From assembly GCF_014279975.1 (NCBI RefSeq), contig NZ_CP047936.1, positions 1,550,001 through 1,614,000 of the forward strand: DNA of 64,000 bases, in the 5' to 3' direction. The notes beneath the pieces are model-generated. The model did not search any database, was not told the DNA's origin, and saw nothing but the letters and a program-made list of their open reading frames with translations. This document shows positions 8,494 through 50,446 of the stretch, piece by piece. The position numbers and the translations under genes were made by a program. Positions within the stretch are counted from its first letter, which is position 1, and every line of letters starts with the position of its first letter. Source of the stretch: Synechococcus sp. BIOS-U3-1. GTDB lineage: Bacteria > Cyanobacteriota > Cyanobacteriia > PCC-6307 > Cyanobiaceae.

Positions 8494-9189
8494 TCAGTTG
8501 GGTCTCCAGCAAAGCCGATATCTCTCAGGCCAGTTGCGCTCCAGCACGGGATTGTGCAAACCAGCCTGGGCAGCGAGTTCGAGGATCTCCGAGGGAGTGA
8601 ATGCCGCTTGAACTGAGAGTGGTCCGTCGTAATGCACCACCCAAGAACGGCTCAACAACCGGGTTCCAGCCCAAGCAAGTGCATACCCCAGACGGCTGCG
8701 GATCAGATCATCCACCAGCACAAGACGACGCGCCCTTGCAGCCATCACGGACAGCAGTCGCACCACCTCCGGAGGATCGAGGTGGTGAACGAACAGAGTG
8801 CAATAGACCACATCAAACGTTCTGTCTTCAGGTGGATTCAGTGCATCAGCAACAAACAATTCGACATTGCTGTTCTGCCTGGCGACATTGCGACGGGCGA
8901 TGCGAATCGCCTCTGGGTTGAGGTCACAGGCGTGAACCGTCATCTTTAGCTGACGTCGTTGAGCCTGTGCTGCCAGCTCGATGGCGGTGTCAGCTCCTCC
9001 ACAGGCCAGCTCCAGCACACTTAAAGACTCTGCAGGAGACTCCAGCGCCAGAGCCTCCAGATGCCGAAACAAGCCTGGAACGCAACGGCTGATGGCATTG
9101 ATGCGACGTAAACCCCGAAGCGCCCGGTCATGTTCAGCTGGGTCCAATCCAGGTTGGTCCATCACCTCCGGCTTGCGATCTCGCAACAT
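8494..9189 (-). CDS. Class I SAM-dependent methyltransferase
   Basis: About 231 residues from ATG 9189; ATG 9162 (MDQPGLDP) is also possible. Motif I (VLELACGGADTAIELA) binds S-adenosylmethionine. The acidic residue after beta 2 (HACDLNPEAIRIA), motif IV (FDVVYCTLFVHHL) and a late VLVDDLIRS strand complete the fold. It is the first gene of the polyketide operon, so an O- or C-methylation of the polyketide is inferred. The frame extends to 9333, but that part does not look like the family N-terminus. Confidence 0.8.
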   Translation of the reverse strand: MLRDRKPEVMDQPGLDPAEHDRALRGLRRINAISRCVPGLFRHLEALALESPAESLSVLELACGGADTAIELAAQAQRRQLKMTVHACDLNPEAIRIARRNVARQNSNVELFVADALNPPEDRTFDVVYCTLFVHHLDPPEVVRLLSVMAARARRLVLVDDLIRSRLGYALAWAGTRLLSRSWVVHYDGPLSVQAAFTPSEILELAAQAGLHNPVLERNWPERYRLCWRPN

Positions 9190-9375
9190 CGGGGCCTGGC
9201 CTGGAACCATGGGCCTGAACCAACAATTGATCAAAGCTAGGCGCCAGGCGACACCAACTGCTGCGCGCTGGTCTAATTCGAACGCATAGATCCCGTTTGT
9301 GCGCGATGGTCTTCGCCGTGAGAAGCGAGGCAAAAAAACGAGCTATCAGAACAACGAAAGTCTCTCGCTCACAAC

Positions 9376-10812
9376 ATGACAGGCTCCGTTGGAAATCTTG
9401 CCTGGAAAGCCGACACCGACCGCCCGAACATTGTTTTGATGTTGGCCGACAACATCGGCTTCGGAGACCTCGGCTGCTACGGCAGCGGCGGAGACCTCCG
9501 CGGTATGCCAACACCGCATCTCGATGATCTGGCGGAAAAGAGCCTGATGTTGACCCAGTTCTTCGTTGAGCCCGGCTGTACCCCGTCTCGGGCTGGATTG
9601 ATGACCGGTCGATACAGCGTTCGGTCGGGACTCAACAGCATCATCGTCGCTGGAACACCCAGCACCCTGCAGGAAGGGGAGTTGACACTCGCGGAAATCT
9701 GCAAGGAGAACGGCTACTCCACAGGGATGGTTGGCAAATGGCATCTGGGTGAAGATGCGCAGAGCATTCCCACAAAGCAGGGATTCGATTCGTACCGCCT
9801 CGGCATTCTGGAAACGACAGACGCCACCCTCTATCCCCAGACCATGCGTCGCTCAGGGATGAGCGAAGAGCAGATCGAAGCAGCACAATCCCACATTTGG
9901 GAGTCGAATGATGACGGCAGTCTGCGCCGTGTTCGCCCTTATGACCTCGAGTATCGCCGTCACGTCGAAAGTGACATCGCCGATGCGGCAACGTCGTTTA
10001 TCAAAGAGAAGTCTGCTGACGACGATCCTTTCTTTCTCTATGTCGGATGGTCCCACGTGCACTACCCGGAGGGAGCCCACAGCGATTTCGAGAATCGATC
10101 GTCATCCGGTCCCTACGGCGACATGCTCATGGAACACGACCACCGTGTAGGACAGGTTGTGGCCGCTGTTGAGGCGGCAGGAGTCCGAGATAACACGATC
10201 ATCATCTACCTCTCCGACAACGGTCCGGTTCAGAACCAGGTGATCAGCACCGACTTCAAAGGCAGCTCGCCAGGACCCTTCCGGGGCGAAGTTGGCGACG
10301 TACTCGAGGGGTCCCTGCGTGTACCGGGAATGGTGTCATGGCCAGGCAATATTCCGGCGCGCAAGAGCAATGAAATGGTGTCAATTCACGATTTTGTGCC
10401 GACCATCGCAGGGATGCTGGGCTCCAAACTGCCGGACGATCGTGCTTACGATGGAGTTAATCAATGGACGTTCTTCGTTGGTGAAAGCGAGCAGTCGAAT
10501 CGCGATCATCTGATCAGTTTCATCGGTGGTGAGATTGCAGCTGTGCGCTGGAAACAATGGCGTCTTTATCCCAAACAAGTGATCCAGTCGCAGACCAATC
10601 CCTCATCGCTCGGAGTCTGCGCCTATCGAGTTGAAGGAATGGGATACCCGTCAATCTTCCATATCGAGCGTGATCCCAGGGAGGAATTCAACGTGGTCGG
10701 AACATGTGCCTGGGTCTTGGGTCCATACATGAAAATCGTCGGCAATTATCTAACCTCCATTAAGGAGCATCCCAATCCTCCAACCTTCAGCATGACGTCG
10801 TTTCCGCAATGA
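9376..10812 (+). CDS. Sulfatase (arylsulfatase family, Cys-type)
   Basis: A 478-residue alkaline-phosphatase-superfamily sulfatase. Metal-binding residues appear in PNIVLMLADNIGFGDLG near the start and in YLSDNGPVQ in the middle. The activation signature is CTPSRAGLMTGRYSVRSGL (about residue 75); its Cys must be oxidised to formylglycine. The substrate would be a sulfate ester, and no signal peptide is evident. The next gene overlaps by 4 bases (ATGA) and encodes the formylglycine-generating enzyme. That gene has a nonsense codon, so the activation state of this sulfatase is in doubt. Confidence 0.92.
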   Translation: MTGSVGNLAWKADTDRPNIVLMLADNIGFGDLGCYGSGGDLRGMPTPHLDDLAEKSLMLTQFFVEPGCTPSRAGLMTGRYSVRSGLNSIIVAGTPSTLQEGELTLAEICKENGYSTGMVGKWHLGEDAQSIPTKQGFDSYRLGILETTDATLYPQTMRRSGMSEEQIEAAQSHIWESNDDGSLRRVRPYDLEYRRHVESDIADAATSFIKEKSADDDPFFLYVGWSHVHYPEGAHSDFENRSSSGPYGDMLMEHDHRVGQVVAAVEAAGVRDNTIIIYLSDNGPVQNQVISTDFKGSSPGPFRGEVGDVLEGSLRVPGMVSWPGNIPARKSNEMVSIHDFVPTIAGMLGSKLPDDRAYDGVNQWTFFVGESEQSNRDHLISFIGGEIAAVRWKQWRLYPKQVIQSQTNPSSLGVCAYRVEGMGYPSIFHIERDPREEFNVVGTCAWVLGPYMKIVGNYLTSIKEHPNPPTFSMTSFPQ

Positions 10813-11681
10813 CGAAGCCGAGTGAATTGCAGTTGAACCCAATCGCGACGCAAGACCTTATTCACATTCGCGGTGGATCTCTACTGATGGGATCCGGCGC
10901 GTTTTACATCGAAGAATCACCAACAGCTGTGGTGGAGATCGACGATGTTCTGATCCAGTCGAAGCTGGTCACCAACGCGCAGTTCAGCCATTTCATAGCT
11001 GAAAGCGGTTATGTCACAACAGCAGAAAGCAACGACCGCCTGGGATCCGTCGTATTCGTTGGGACGACTGGACCCGTCGCTCTAGATGACTGGCGAAAAT
11101 GGTGGGCTTGGGTTCCTGGCGCGAACTGGCTTCACCCCCAAGGGCCTGAATCGAACCTGGATGAGCAGATGCATCATCCCGTTGTGCATGTGTCCCTACA
11201 CGACGCTCGGGCCTATGCGGACTGGGCCGGTCTGGCCCTCCCGCAGGAACCGGAATGGGAGTGGTGTGCTCGTGGGGGCCTTGAAGGAGCCACCTACACC
11301 TGGGGGGAGGAGCCCAATCAAGGTGAAACTCTCTTCGCCAACACCTGGCAGGGCGACTTTCCATTTGACAATCGTGGGGCCCATGGATGGAAAGGCACGT
11401 CACCAGTCGGAGCCTTTCCGGCCAATGGCTACGGCCTTTTCGACATGGCAGGAAACGTCTGGGAGTGAACGGAAAGTGCGTGGCAGGACATTCCTAGTGC
11501 ACATTCCTGTTGCTCAGGATCAGCAGCCGGTGGTGACCTGAAAATCATCAAGGGCGGCTCGCACCTATGTTCCCCTCAGTACTGCCTCCGCTTCCGTCCA
11601 GCTGCCAGATCTCCTCAGGAATCCAGCGAAAGCACGAGTCACATCGGCTTCCGCTGCATCTCGCGGCACAGGCCAAAGTGA
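10809..11681 (+). pseudogene. Formylglycine-generating enzyme (SUMF1-like) with one in-frame TGA
   Basis: This gene should oxidise the sulfatase Cys to formylglycine. From ATG 10809 the frame runs 219 codons to GNVWE and then TGA at 11466-11468. The same frame continues without shift for 70 more codons to a TGA at 11679. This distal part carries KIIKGGSHLCSPQYC, with the C-x4-C pair of catalytic, copper-binding cysteines, and STSHIGFRC, the usual C-terminus. The family motif is GNVWEW, so TGA replaces TGG. It is a one-base nonsense allele, a sequencing error, or a readthrough or recoding site. Without the distal part the protein lacks its catalytic centre. It overlaps the sulfatase by ATGA. 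Confidence 0.85.
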
Positions 11682-11697
11682 TCACGTTGCTGACTGC

Positions 11698-12867
11698 TCA
11701 GATCTCCCAGATCAGAGCCTTCTCACTGGCCACGTTGAGAATGTTGCTGCGTGCCTTCGCCTGCAGCTCGGCCGGGTACCAGACACCTGCGGGGATGGTC
11801 TGCTCTGCGGACGAGAGTCCTGAACGCCCCCGCAACAGCTCCAATGCGAATGCCGCTGTGGCCTGACCCACACAATCTTCGAGATCCGCATGCACACAGC
11901 GCAGGGTGACCTGAGCAGGCATTCCTGAGCTGGCATCACCCTTCCTGAAAGCATCAACACGGATGGCATTGGTGGCTCCGACAAGCTTGTCGACCACCCT
12001 GATGAAGGGCATCGAAAACAACGCCAGGCCCTGCATCGCTGAGCGATTGAACAGCCAATCGCTCGGCAGCAGTTTCATGGCCGCGAACAAACTGTTCCAG
12101 ACACCCGGCGCAGTGCCGAAACGCGAAGCGCAATTAGCAACAGCCAATGCTTCAACAGTGGTCGGCACATCGGGGTTGTCGAGCAGGAAGCAGGCGTGCC
12201 TGCCCACACCTGAACCAAAGTCAACGACCCGACGCTCAGTCCAGGGCTCTTTGAGCGTGAGACTGCCATCCAAATAGGTCAACACTTTGGTGGCCAGAAG
12301 CAGAAAGGTGGCACTCACGATGGTGGGCCCGGCACCACCGGTTCCGGCTGTGAAAAAGCTCAGCTCGATGCGTTCACAGCTCTCTGGACCTCCAAGCTGT
12401 TGTGCTGCCTCGATAGCCATCAGTGCGCTGACTCCGGGCCAGATGCCACAGGAGACCACCGCAGGGATCCCAGCAGCGGCAGCTTCACTCGAGAGCTCCT
12501 TGGCATGGCGACTGAGGGCAAATTCATCGCAAACATCGCAATACGGAACCCCTGCTGCGATGCAAGCCCTGAGTAGATCAGGTTGCGTACAACCCTGGAA
12601 CGGTCCGGCCGTATGCACAACCAGCTTGACGCCACGGACGACGGCGACGAGCGAGTCGAAACCAGTCTCGAGATCCACTGACCTAAAAACGAGCTTCGGG
12701 AGGGCGAGACGATTCTGTACGGCCTCAAAATGGGCCCTGCTGCGACCGCCGATGGCAAGCCTGAGTGGCGCACTCGCGTTGCGACGGAGAGAGAGCTGAT
12801 GGAGCCAACGCACTGTTGAGGCACCAACGCGCCCATTGCCACCGATCACGAGCACATCAATCGTCAT
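11698..12867 (-). CDS. Saccharopine dehydrogenase-like NAD(P)-binding protein
   Basis: About 389 residues from ATG 12867 (MTIDVLVIGG). The N-terminus has a Rossmann motif (VIGGNGRVGASTVRWL) followed by IGGRSRAHFEAV and VVHTAGPFQGC, characteristic of the saccharopine dehydrogenase-like / trans-acting enoyl reductase group (COG3268-like). Cofactor binding is supported; the substrate is not. The gene is convergent with the broken formylglycine-generating enzyme gene, their stops 16 bases apart. Confidence 0.75.
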   Translation of the reverse strand: MTIDVLVIGGNGRVGASTVRWLHQLSLRRNASAPLRLAIGGRSRAHFEAVQNRLALPKLVFRSVDLETGFDSLVAVVRGVKLVVHTAGPFQGCTQPDLLRACIAAGVPYCDVCDEFALSRHAKELSSEAAAAGIPAVVSCGIWPGVSALMAIEAAQQLGGPESCERIELSFFTAGTGGAGPTIVSATFLLLATKVLTYLDGSLTLKEPWTERRVVDFGSGVGRHACFLLDNPDVPTTVEALAVANCASRFGTAPGVWNSLFAAMKLLPSDWLFNRSAMQGLALFSMPFIRVVDKLVGATNAIRVDAFRKGDASSGMPAQVTLRCVHADLEDCVGQATAAFALELLRGRSGLSSAEQTIPAGVWYPAELQAKARSNILNVASEKALIWEI

Positions 12868-12980
12868 TGACGACACCATCACAGCTGGCTGCCGAGCAAG
12901 ACAAGCCACTAATGAATGAGCGGCATCCTTGGTGCGGCATCCTTGGCCCGCCATGGTTGCTGGACATGCCTCTAGATCGT

Positions 12981-49017: not shown

Positions 49018-49272
49018 GTGTTTTCAATACAGCGACTGACAGACAAGGGTTGGCAAACGCAGCAACGGGAGCTCACACTTGACGAAGCCAAGGCCAGTGT
49101 GAGTGTCTTGTCAGGTCAATGCCAGAGCGTCTATCGCGTTGTTGATCAGGAATCGTTCGAAATGCAGTGTCTTTGGCGACACGGAACGGTTTTGGTCGAT
49201 CAATCAGAGGCCCTTGAGCCGCCCATTCATCAGGAGAATCAATCAGCCCCATCCATCACAGCGAAGAACTGA
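49018..49272 (+). CDS. Small hypothetical protein, 84 aa
   Basis: 84 residues, starting MFSIQRLTDKGWQTQQRELT; soluble with two Cys. It precedes the larger hypothetical gene by 49 bases on the same strand. No family recognised. Confidence 0.5.
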   Translation: MFSIQRLTDKGWQTQQRELTLDEAKASVSVLSGQCQSVYRVVDQESFEMQCLWRHGTVLVDQSEALEPPIHQENQSAPSITAKN

Positions 49273-49321
49273 AGCAAGACCAGCTCAACACATTGCTTTA
49301 AGAGGGGTCCAACCGATTAAG

Positions 49322-50446
49322 GTGCCAGCCCTCGGGGCGGGGAACTTGACGCATCAGGTGAACAATCGGGTAGTCGTGATCTGCCGCTCAGACGAAAGCA
49401 TCTGGCGGCCGAACGGCATCAAGGGAGCCCCTATCGGGTCGTATTCAATCGGAATTGATCCGATCACAAAGAAGATTCGCAGTGAGCGTTCGCCTGAGAG
49501 CTGCCTGCACAGCTTCAGCCACAGCGCCAACGGCACGCTGATTGAGTTGTCCAGCGAGGGAGCAGGTGTGATCGCCATCGACACGATCGATCTTCCACTT
49601 AGCACGTTGGCGGTGGTGCGACTGATTTCCACACAACAGAACAGCGACATTCACTTAGTGGAAGGGGTGAAAGCTGAGGATCTATCGGCTTACAACTGGA
49701 GCCTTGAAGGCAAAGAGAGATTTCAGCTGTTCCGGGAGCCAGAACCACCAGAGCTCTACAGATCCCATCAAGAGGATTTCGATCAGCGGCTGGAACAGGA
49801 GTTCGCATCAGCGGTGCAAGCCCTCTCAATTCACATCACTGAAGATGATCAAAAAGTTTTTGATGCCTTCATGACCAGTGCCTGCGCGAACAATCCTGGC
49901 TTGTTCTGGGACATTCGCAAAGCTGCAGCTATGTACGCACTACAGGGAAGCTTCAGCAAAAATGATCTATCCCGAATGGTTTATTTGGCGCAAGAAGGAA
50001 TCGACCCCCAGCAATTGTCATTTGAGTGCACACCTCAACAGTTCATCAAAGCCCTCTTCGATCACTGCAAGCAGACAGCAGAGGCTCTGAGCGATGAGCA
50101 GATCTGGGAGGCGCAGACCACTTGCAATCTGCTGACACTGAATCAGCTGATGCCCATCGTGCAGTCCAACTCGACATACAAACCATTTCTGTACCAATGG
50201 CTATGGAGACTGAACGGCAAACCGGATCCAAGCCTGATCGAAAACCCTGATCTCTACGAGATCTACAGAGAGGAATTAATTGCCGATCGAGAGAAGATCA
50301 TGATGGCCTTCGGGATCGATGGAGCCCTTGAAGTCGACTATCGCGATCAGGTGATCAACTCCATGCTTCGTGATGACGGCTGGACCCTGGTGGAGACAGA
50401 CCGGTTCGAAGAGGAAGAACAACGACGGAGAAGGGGCGAGTTGTAG
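49322..50446 (+). CDS. Hypothetical protein, about 374 aa
   Basis: The frame opens at 49103, but the first 70 codons overlap the small gene at 49018 and look non-coding; GTG 49322 or TTG 49346 are the plausible starts. The N-terminal third is beta-rich, the rest helical and acidic (long regions around EDFDQRLEQEFASAVQAL). No recognised motif. Large for this region and clearly coding by composition. Confidence 0.55.
   Translation: MPALGAGNLTHQVNNRVVVICRSDESIWRPNGIKGAPIGSYSIGIDPITKKIRSERSPESCLHSFSHSANGTLIELSSEGAGVIAIDTIDLPLSTLAVVRLISTQQNSDIHLVEGVKAEDLSAYNWSLEGKERFQLFREPEPPELYRSHQEDFDQRLEQEFASAVQALSIHITEDDQKVFDAFMTSACANNPGLFWDIRKAAAMYALQGSFSKNDLSRMVYLAQEGIDPQQLSFECTPQQFIKALFDHCKQTAEALSDEQIWEAQTTCNLLTLNQLMPIVQSNSTYKPFLYQWLWRLNGKPDPSLIENPDLYEIYREELIADREKIMMAFGIDGALEVDYRDQVINSMLRDDGWTLVETDRFEEEEQRRRRGEL

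Follow-up and report, generated by a model that had tools for sequence, protein, structure and literature searches.

A formylglycine-generating enzyme gene interrupted by a single in-frame TGA in Synechococcus sp. BIOS-U3-1, probably a nascent pseudogene of a dispensable sulfatase operon

Gene content of the locus

The window analysed here, a stretch of 64,000 nucleotides of the Synechococcus sp. BIOS-U3-1 genome (NZ_CP047936.1, positions 1,550,001 to 1,614,000), carries a sulfatase gene followed by a gene for a formylglycine-generating enzyme (FGE), the pair being enclosed by a divergent gene upstream and a convergent gene downstream (Table 1). The FGE gene starts at the ATG at 10809, which overlaps the sulfatase stop as ATGA. 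Its frame of 291 codons contains stops at codons 220 and 291 only and no frameshift; the first of these follows directly after the family motif GNVWE, and sense codons 221-290 then lead to the terminal TGA at 11679-11681. A preliminary description, made from the sequence alone, had reported both the overlap and this order of GNVWE, in-frame TGA and 70 further codons running through the C-x4-C pair, and both are confirmed here.

Table 1. Features of the sulfatase-FGE locus, of its remnants in related genomes and of the tRNA-Trp gene
Feature	Location	Strand	Description	Evidence
Upstream flank gene	8494..9333	-	Divergent; methyltransferase domain	
Sulfatase gene	9376..10812	+	478 aa, uninterrupted, CTPSR, ends in TGA	PF00884, 174.2 bits
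FGE frame to premature TGA	10809..11468	+	219 aa	ORF list, translation
Premature TGA	11466..11468	+	Codon 220, at Trp of GNVWEW	Sequence, alignment of loci
Open FGE continuation	11469..11681	+	70 codons with C254-x4-C259, plus terminal TGA	
Downstream flank gene	11698..12867	-	Convergent; saccharopine dehydrogenase NADP-binding domain	
Remnant in G008			Sulfatase reduced to about 10 codons, followed directly by FGE from about codon 198	
Remnant in G030			FGE from about codon 192, in-frame stops	
Remnants in G018 and G014			FGE from about codon 240, breakpoint common to both	
Remnant in G009			Last 39 bases of FGE only; different upstream side	
Remnant in G028			About 52-60 sulfatase codons, no FGE	
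tRNA-Trp(CCA) with A24 (L165)	G000:C1:1927629-1927701		Outside the window	

When the premature TGA is read as Trp, the product matches PF03781 with 232.6 bits over residues 15-284 (cut-off 23.3), and when it is entered as X, solved FGE structures match on both sides of it (8aru_A, E 1.6e-60, residues 13-288). Matches that run across the stop in this way indicate that the two halves are one gene and that the open continuation is more than chance. The C-x4-C cysteines, which are catalytic in known FGEs, correspond to C254 and C259, both downstream of the premature TGA, and Cys occupies both columns in all 110 aligned FGE loci. The full-length domain and the cysteine pair of the family are therefore present at this locus; what is missing is an uninterrupted frame.

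The partner sulfatase is uninterrupted; it retains its CTPSR signature, as the preliminary description had it. At the place where metal-binding sulfatases usually have DD, the sulfatase reads LADN; its nearest relatives in the family, G285 and G259, read LLDN and the remnant in G028 reads LADN, so that the motif looks like a trait of the subgroup and not like decay. No FGE was found within the 1.5 kb flanks of G285 and G259, whose sulfatases are about 40% identical to that of the window, and they are thus of no help in tracing the pair.

The downstream flank gene, for which the start at 12867 was chosen by the analyst within a mechanical ORF extending to 12984, served as the marker for finding the same locus in relatives. 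At 12888-12934, four of these (G008, G030, G018 and G014; L033, L034, L035 and L036) hold about 1.4 kb extra between the matches, with a 457-codon frame that in L035 matches MFS_1 (PF07690); this stretch is absent from the window's genome, and the match to G009 passes through without it. Farther along the window, long frames are few at 41113-64000: one of 447 aa without a Pfam match (49103-50446) stands out, and the other listed frames are of at most 212 aa. Pfam matches were obtained there for three of the ten scanned frames (DUF924, Cu/Zn superoxide dismutase and DoxX), and the region may consist of small genes or of decayed ones.

The codon expected at the stop

When the site is taken as the codon next after the E of GNVWE in the alignment, TGG occupies it in 110/110 FGE loci examined, comprising the second FGE of the same genome (1/1), the second FGE of other genus genomes (19/19), the genome_contigs loci (80/80) and other genomes of the family (10/10). 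Taken by alignment column, the count is 98/110, an aligner insertion sitting directly after GNVWE in 12 loci. From genome_contigs, where 565 loci were confirmed, the best 80 were taken; since MAGNVWEW was among the six peptides used to look for them, they carry a bias towards Trp that does not affect the remaining 30 loci, which came by another route. Two decayed orthologues extend over the site, those of G008 and G030, and TGG is found in both. The disabling lesion is absent from these homologues, as is expected of a pseudogene, and the proposal that Trp (TGG) belongs at the position of the TGA is well borne out.

The FGE frame holds 13 TGG codons, and 39 single C:G-to-T:A changes within it would yield a stop, which makes such a mutation unremarkable and calls for no special cause.

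Age of the lesion

The C-terminal stretch behind the stop was compared with the remnants in relatives, giving dN/dS values of 0.148 for G008 (89 codons), 0.119 for G030 (74 codons), 0.069 for G018 (51 codons) and 0.070 for G014 (50 codons); these estimates rest on 50-89 codons and on reference remnants that are themselves dead, and they reflect mostly the time before the lesion. The flank genes give 0.14-0.23, and the C-terminal FGE stretch lies in that range or below. The lesion appears to be young, because the frame is otherwise free of internal stops and frameshifts, and because the substitutions after the stop follow a pattern of purifying selection. The undecayed distal part had earlier been held to argue against an old pseudogene; it does speak for a young lesion, and for nothing beyond youth.

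Fate of the pair in related genomes

Among 31 genomes of the genus, a full-length orthologue of the window's FGE or sulfatase is present in the window's genome only. Six other genomes of the genus have the downstream flank gene at 78-84% identity, and none of the six keeps the sulfatase-FGE pair: they retain remnants only, mostly with different breakpoints, so that several different deletions have removed the pair. Further decay is visible within the remnants, that of G014 having TAA in place of Y258. The region of the upstream flank is conserved in G008, G014, G018 and G028, and the G030 contig gave no match to the sulfatase or to the upstream flank. Three of the assemblies are incomplete (G014 70%, G018 80%, G030 80%), with both flanks lying on the fetched stretch in G014 and G018. 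A seventh genome, G016, has the flank gene at 68% identity and no orthologue of the pair either. A search of viral contigs for intact copies was negative both for relatives of the sulfatase and for exact matches to a 26-base stretch before the stop.

Loss of the pair throughout the six relatives is, like the lesion at the Trp codon, what a pseudogene would be expected to show, and the window's genome seems to have gone less far along the same course. Stops or frameshifts in sibling strains had been named beforehand as the mark of a plain pseudogene; deletions and further stops were indeed encountered, in a comparison set made up of related species of the genus and not of strains of the same species.

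A second FGE in the same genome

A further FGE gene without stops lies at G000:C1:762874-763689; its product is 51% identical to that of the window by profile search and 45% by tblastn, and 299 bases separate the end of its frame from a downstream frame of 825 codons matching the sulfatase. Genes of this second type occur in 20 of the 31 genus genomes, that of the window included, at E <= 1e-60. The CxPxR motif is the target of FGEs in different sulfatases. The second enzyme, whose gene is present, may therefore activate the window's sulfatase in trans. Given this additional FGE, itself uninterrupted, the premise that the adjacent sulfatase needs the window's FGE, on which the preliminary description had relied, becomes unsafe: the sulfatase need not depend on its neighbour if the second FGE could serve it.

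Discussion

The observations are very probably explained by a recent nonsense mutation in the FGE of a dispensable sulfatase-FGE operon that the genus is losing, so that the gene would be a nascent pseudogene. In the FGE gene of the two-gene operon, the Trp codon of GNVWEW would have become TGA through a single substitution, and translation would then end after codon 219. The truncated product, deprived of both C-x4-C cysteines, should not make formylglycine. Such a loss would be tolerated because the operon is dispensable, as its disappearance from 6/6 relatives with the flank gene at 78-84% identity indicates, and probably also because the second FGE could activate the sulfatase in trans. 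A recent nonsense mutation was one of the options raised beforehand, and it is now well supported by the TGG found at all 110 loci and in both remnants, by the loss of the pair in all six relatives and by the second FGE. A point that speaks against a nascent pseudogene is that the partner sulfatase gene is still uninterrupted.

The best of the alternatives, though an improbable one, is an error of base calling or assembly, the living cell having TGG and an intact FGE. The clean remainder of the frame and the universal TGG among the loci examined would both agree with it, but the genome was assembled as one contig with 99.89% completeness and 0.18% contamination, and the stop falls in the very pair that 6/6 relatives with the flank gene have lost, a place that a random error would not favour.

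More doubtful still is background readthrough, in which the ordinary tRNA-Trp(CCA) misreads UGA as Trp and yields a little full-length FGE, perhaps enough for a catalyst in low demand. Several features would suit it: the residue expected at the stop is Trp, the distal frame is clean, and the base after the TGA is A, a context in which UGA is leaky in E. coli. The tRNA-Trp of the genome also has a U11-A24 pair; according to PMC13092985, the G24A change of E. coli tRNA-Trp (Hirsh) permits UGA readthrough. Against this, A24 was found in 29/29 inspected copies of tRNA-Trp in the family, and an identical tRNA-Trp in 22 other family genomes (56 of 61 genomes gave a match), so that A24 is a trait of the family and nothing special to the window's genome. 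Readthrough is further disfavoured by a 5-bp anticodon stem, by the dispensability of the operon and by the presence of another FGE. A short anticodon stem of the tRNA-Trp, an idea prompted by PMC13092985, was discarded in view of the 5-bp stem. A structured recoding element was sought in 9300-11800 and gave no Rfam match at E <= 1. A restart of translation behind the TGA was likewise set aside, the first GTG after the stop being out of frame (judged by eye).

It is tempting to hypothesize, at long odds, that the A24 tRNA-Trp of the family reads UGA-A efficiently enough that, in an enzyme in low demand, replacing Trp by UGA gives a weak allele and not a null one, such stops then being tolerable to marine picocyanobacteria for some time. 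Were this so, weak readthrough would be relevant to the question of how UGA at Trp positions is tolerated in bacteria ahead of a change of the code.

A sense meaning of UGA in this organism, as Trp or as selenocysteine, is suggested by the TGA at a conserved Trp and is exceedingly improbable, given that prfB (RF2) is present (profile score 475.8 bits against a cut-off of 370), that the anticodon UCA occurs at none of the 44 tRNA places, all run through ARAGORN, the one tRNA-Trp found having the anticodon CCA, that both the sulfatase and the FGE terminate with TGA, and that, as to selenocysteine, the homologues have Trp at the site (110/110 loci) and not Cys or Sec, with no tRNA-Sec (RF01852) over the cut-off in the genome (the highest match reaches 45.3 bits, the cut-off being 47, and falls on what ARAGORN calls a tRNA-Ser). 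Both reassignment to Trp and selenocysteine are accordingly rejected, and the reading of UGA as Trp, which had been listed among the initial options, is contradicted as far as a change of the code is concerned.

Taken as a nascent pseudogene, the locus offers a clean example of early gene loss, with one species carrying a single stop and six relatives carrying remnants, and its flanks allow the steps of the loss to be dated. It also serves as a warning that partnership in an operon is no proof of need when an enzyme of the same family is encoded elsewhere in the genome.

Comparison with known systems

As an FGE of the SUMF1-like type (PF03781), the read-through product matches the whole domain and has both GNVWE and the C-x4-C pair; it differs from the family in that a TGA at codon 220 cuts the frame before either cysteine is reached. 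With organisms that use UGA for Trp the genome shares a TGA at a conserved Trp and a tRNA-Trp with A24, whereas it departs from them in having RF2, a 5-bp anticodon stem and TGA as a terminator, and in that no UCA anticodon was found. The locus also resembles nascent pseudogenes of bacteria, arising in genes that are dispensable or redundant, with which it shares a single lesion, an uninterrupted second gene of the family and the loss of the pair in related species; no difference from such cases can be named, and the partner sulfatase is still open.
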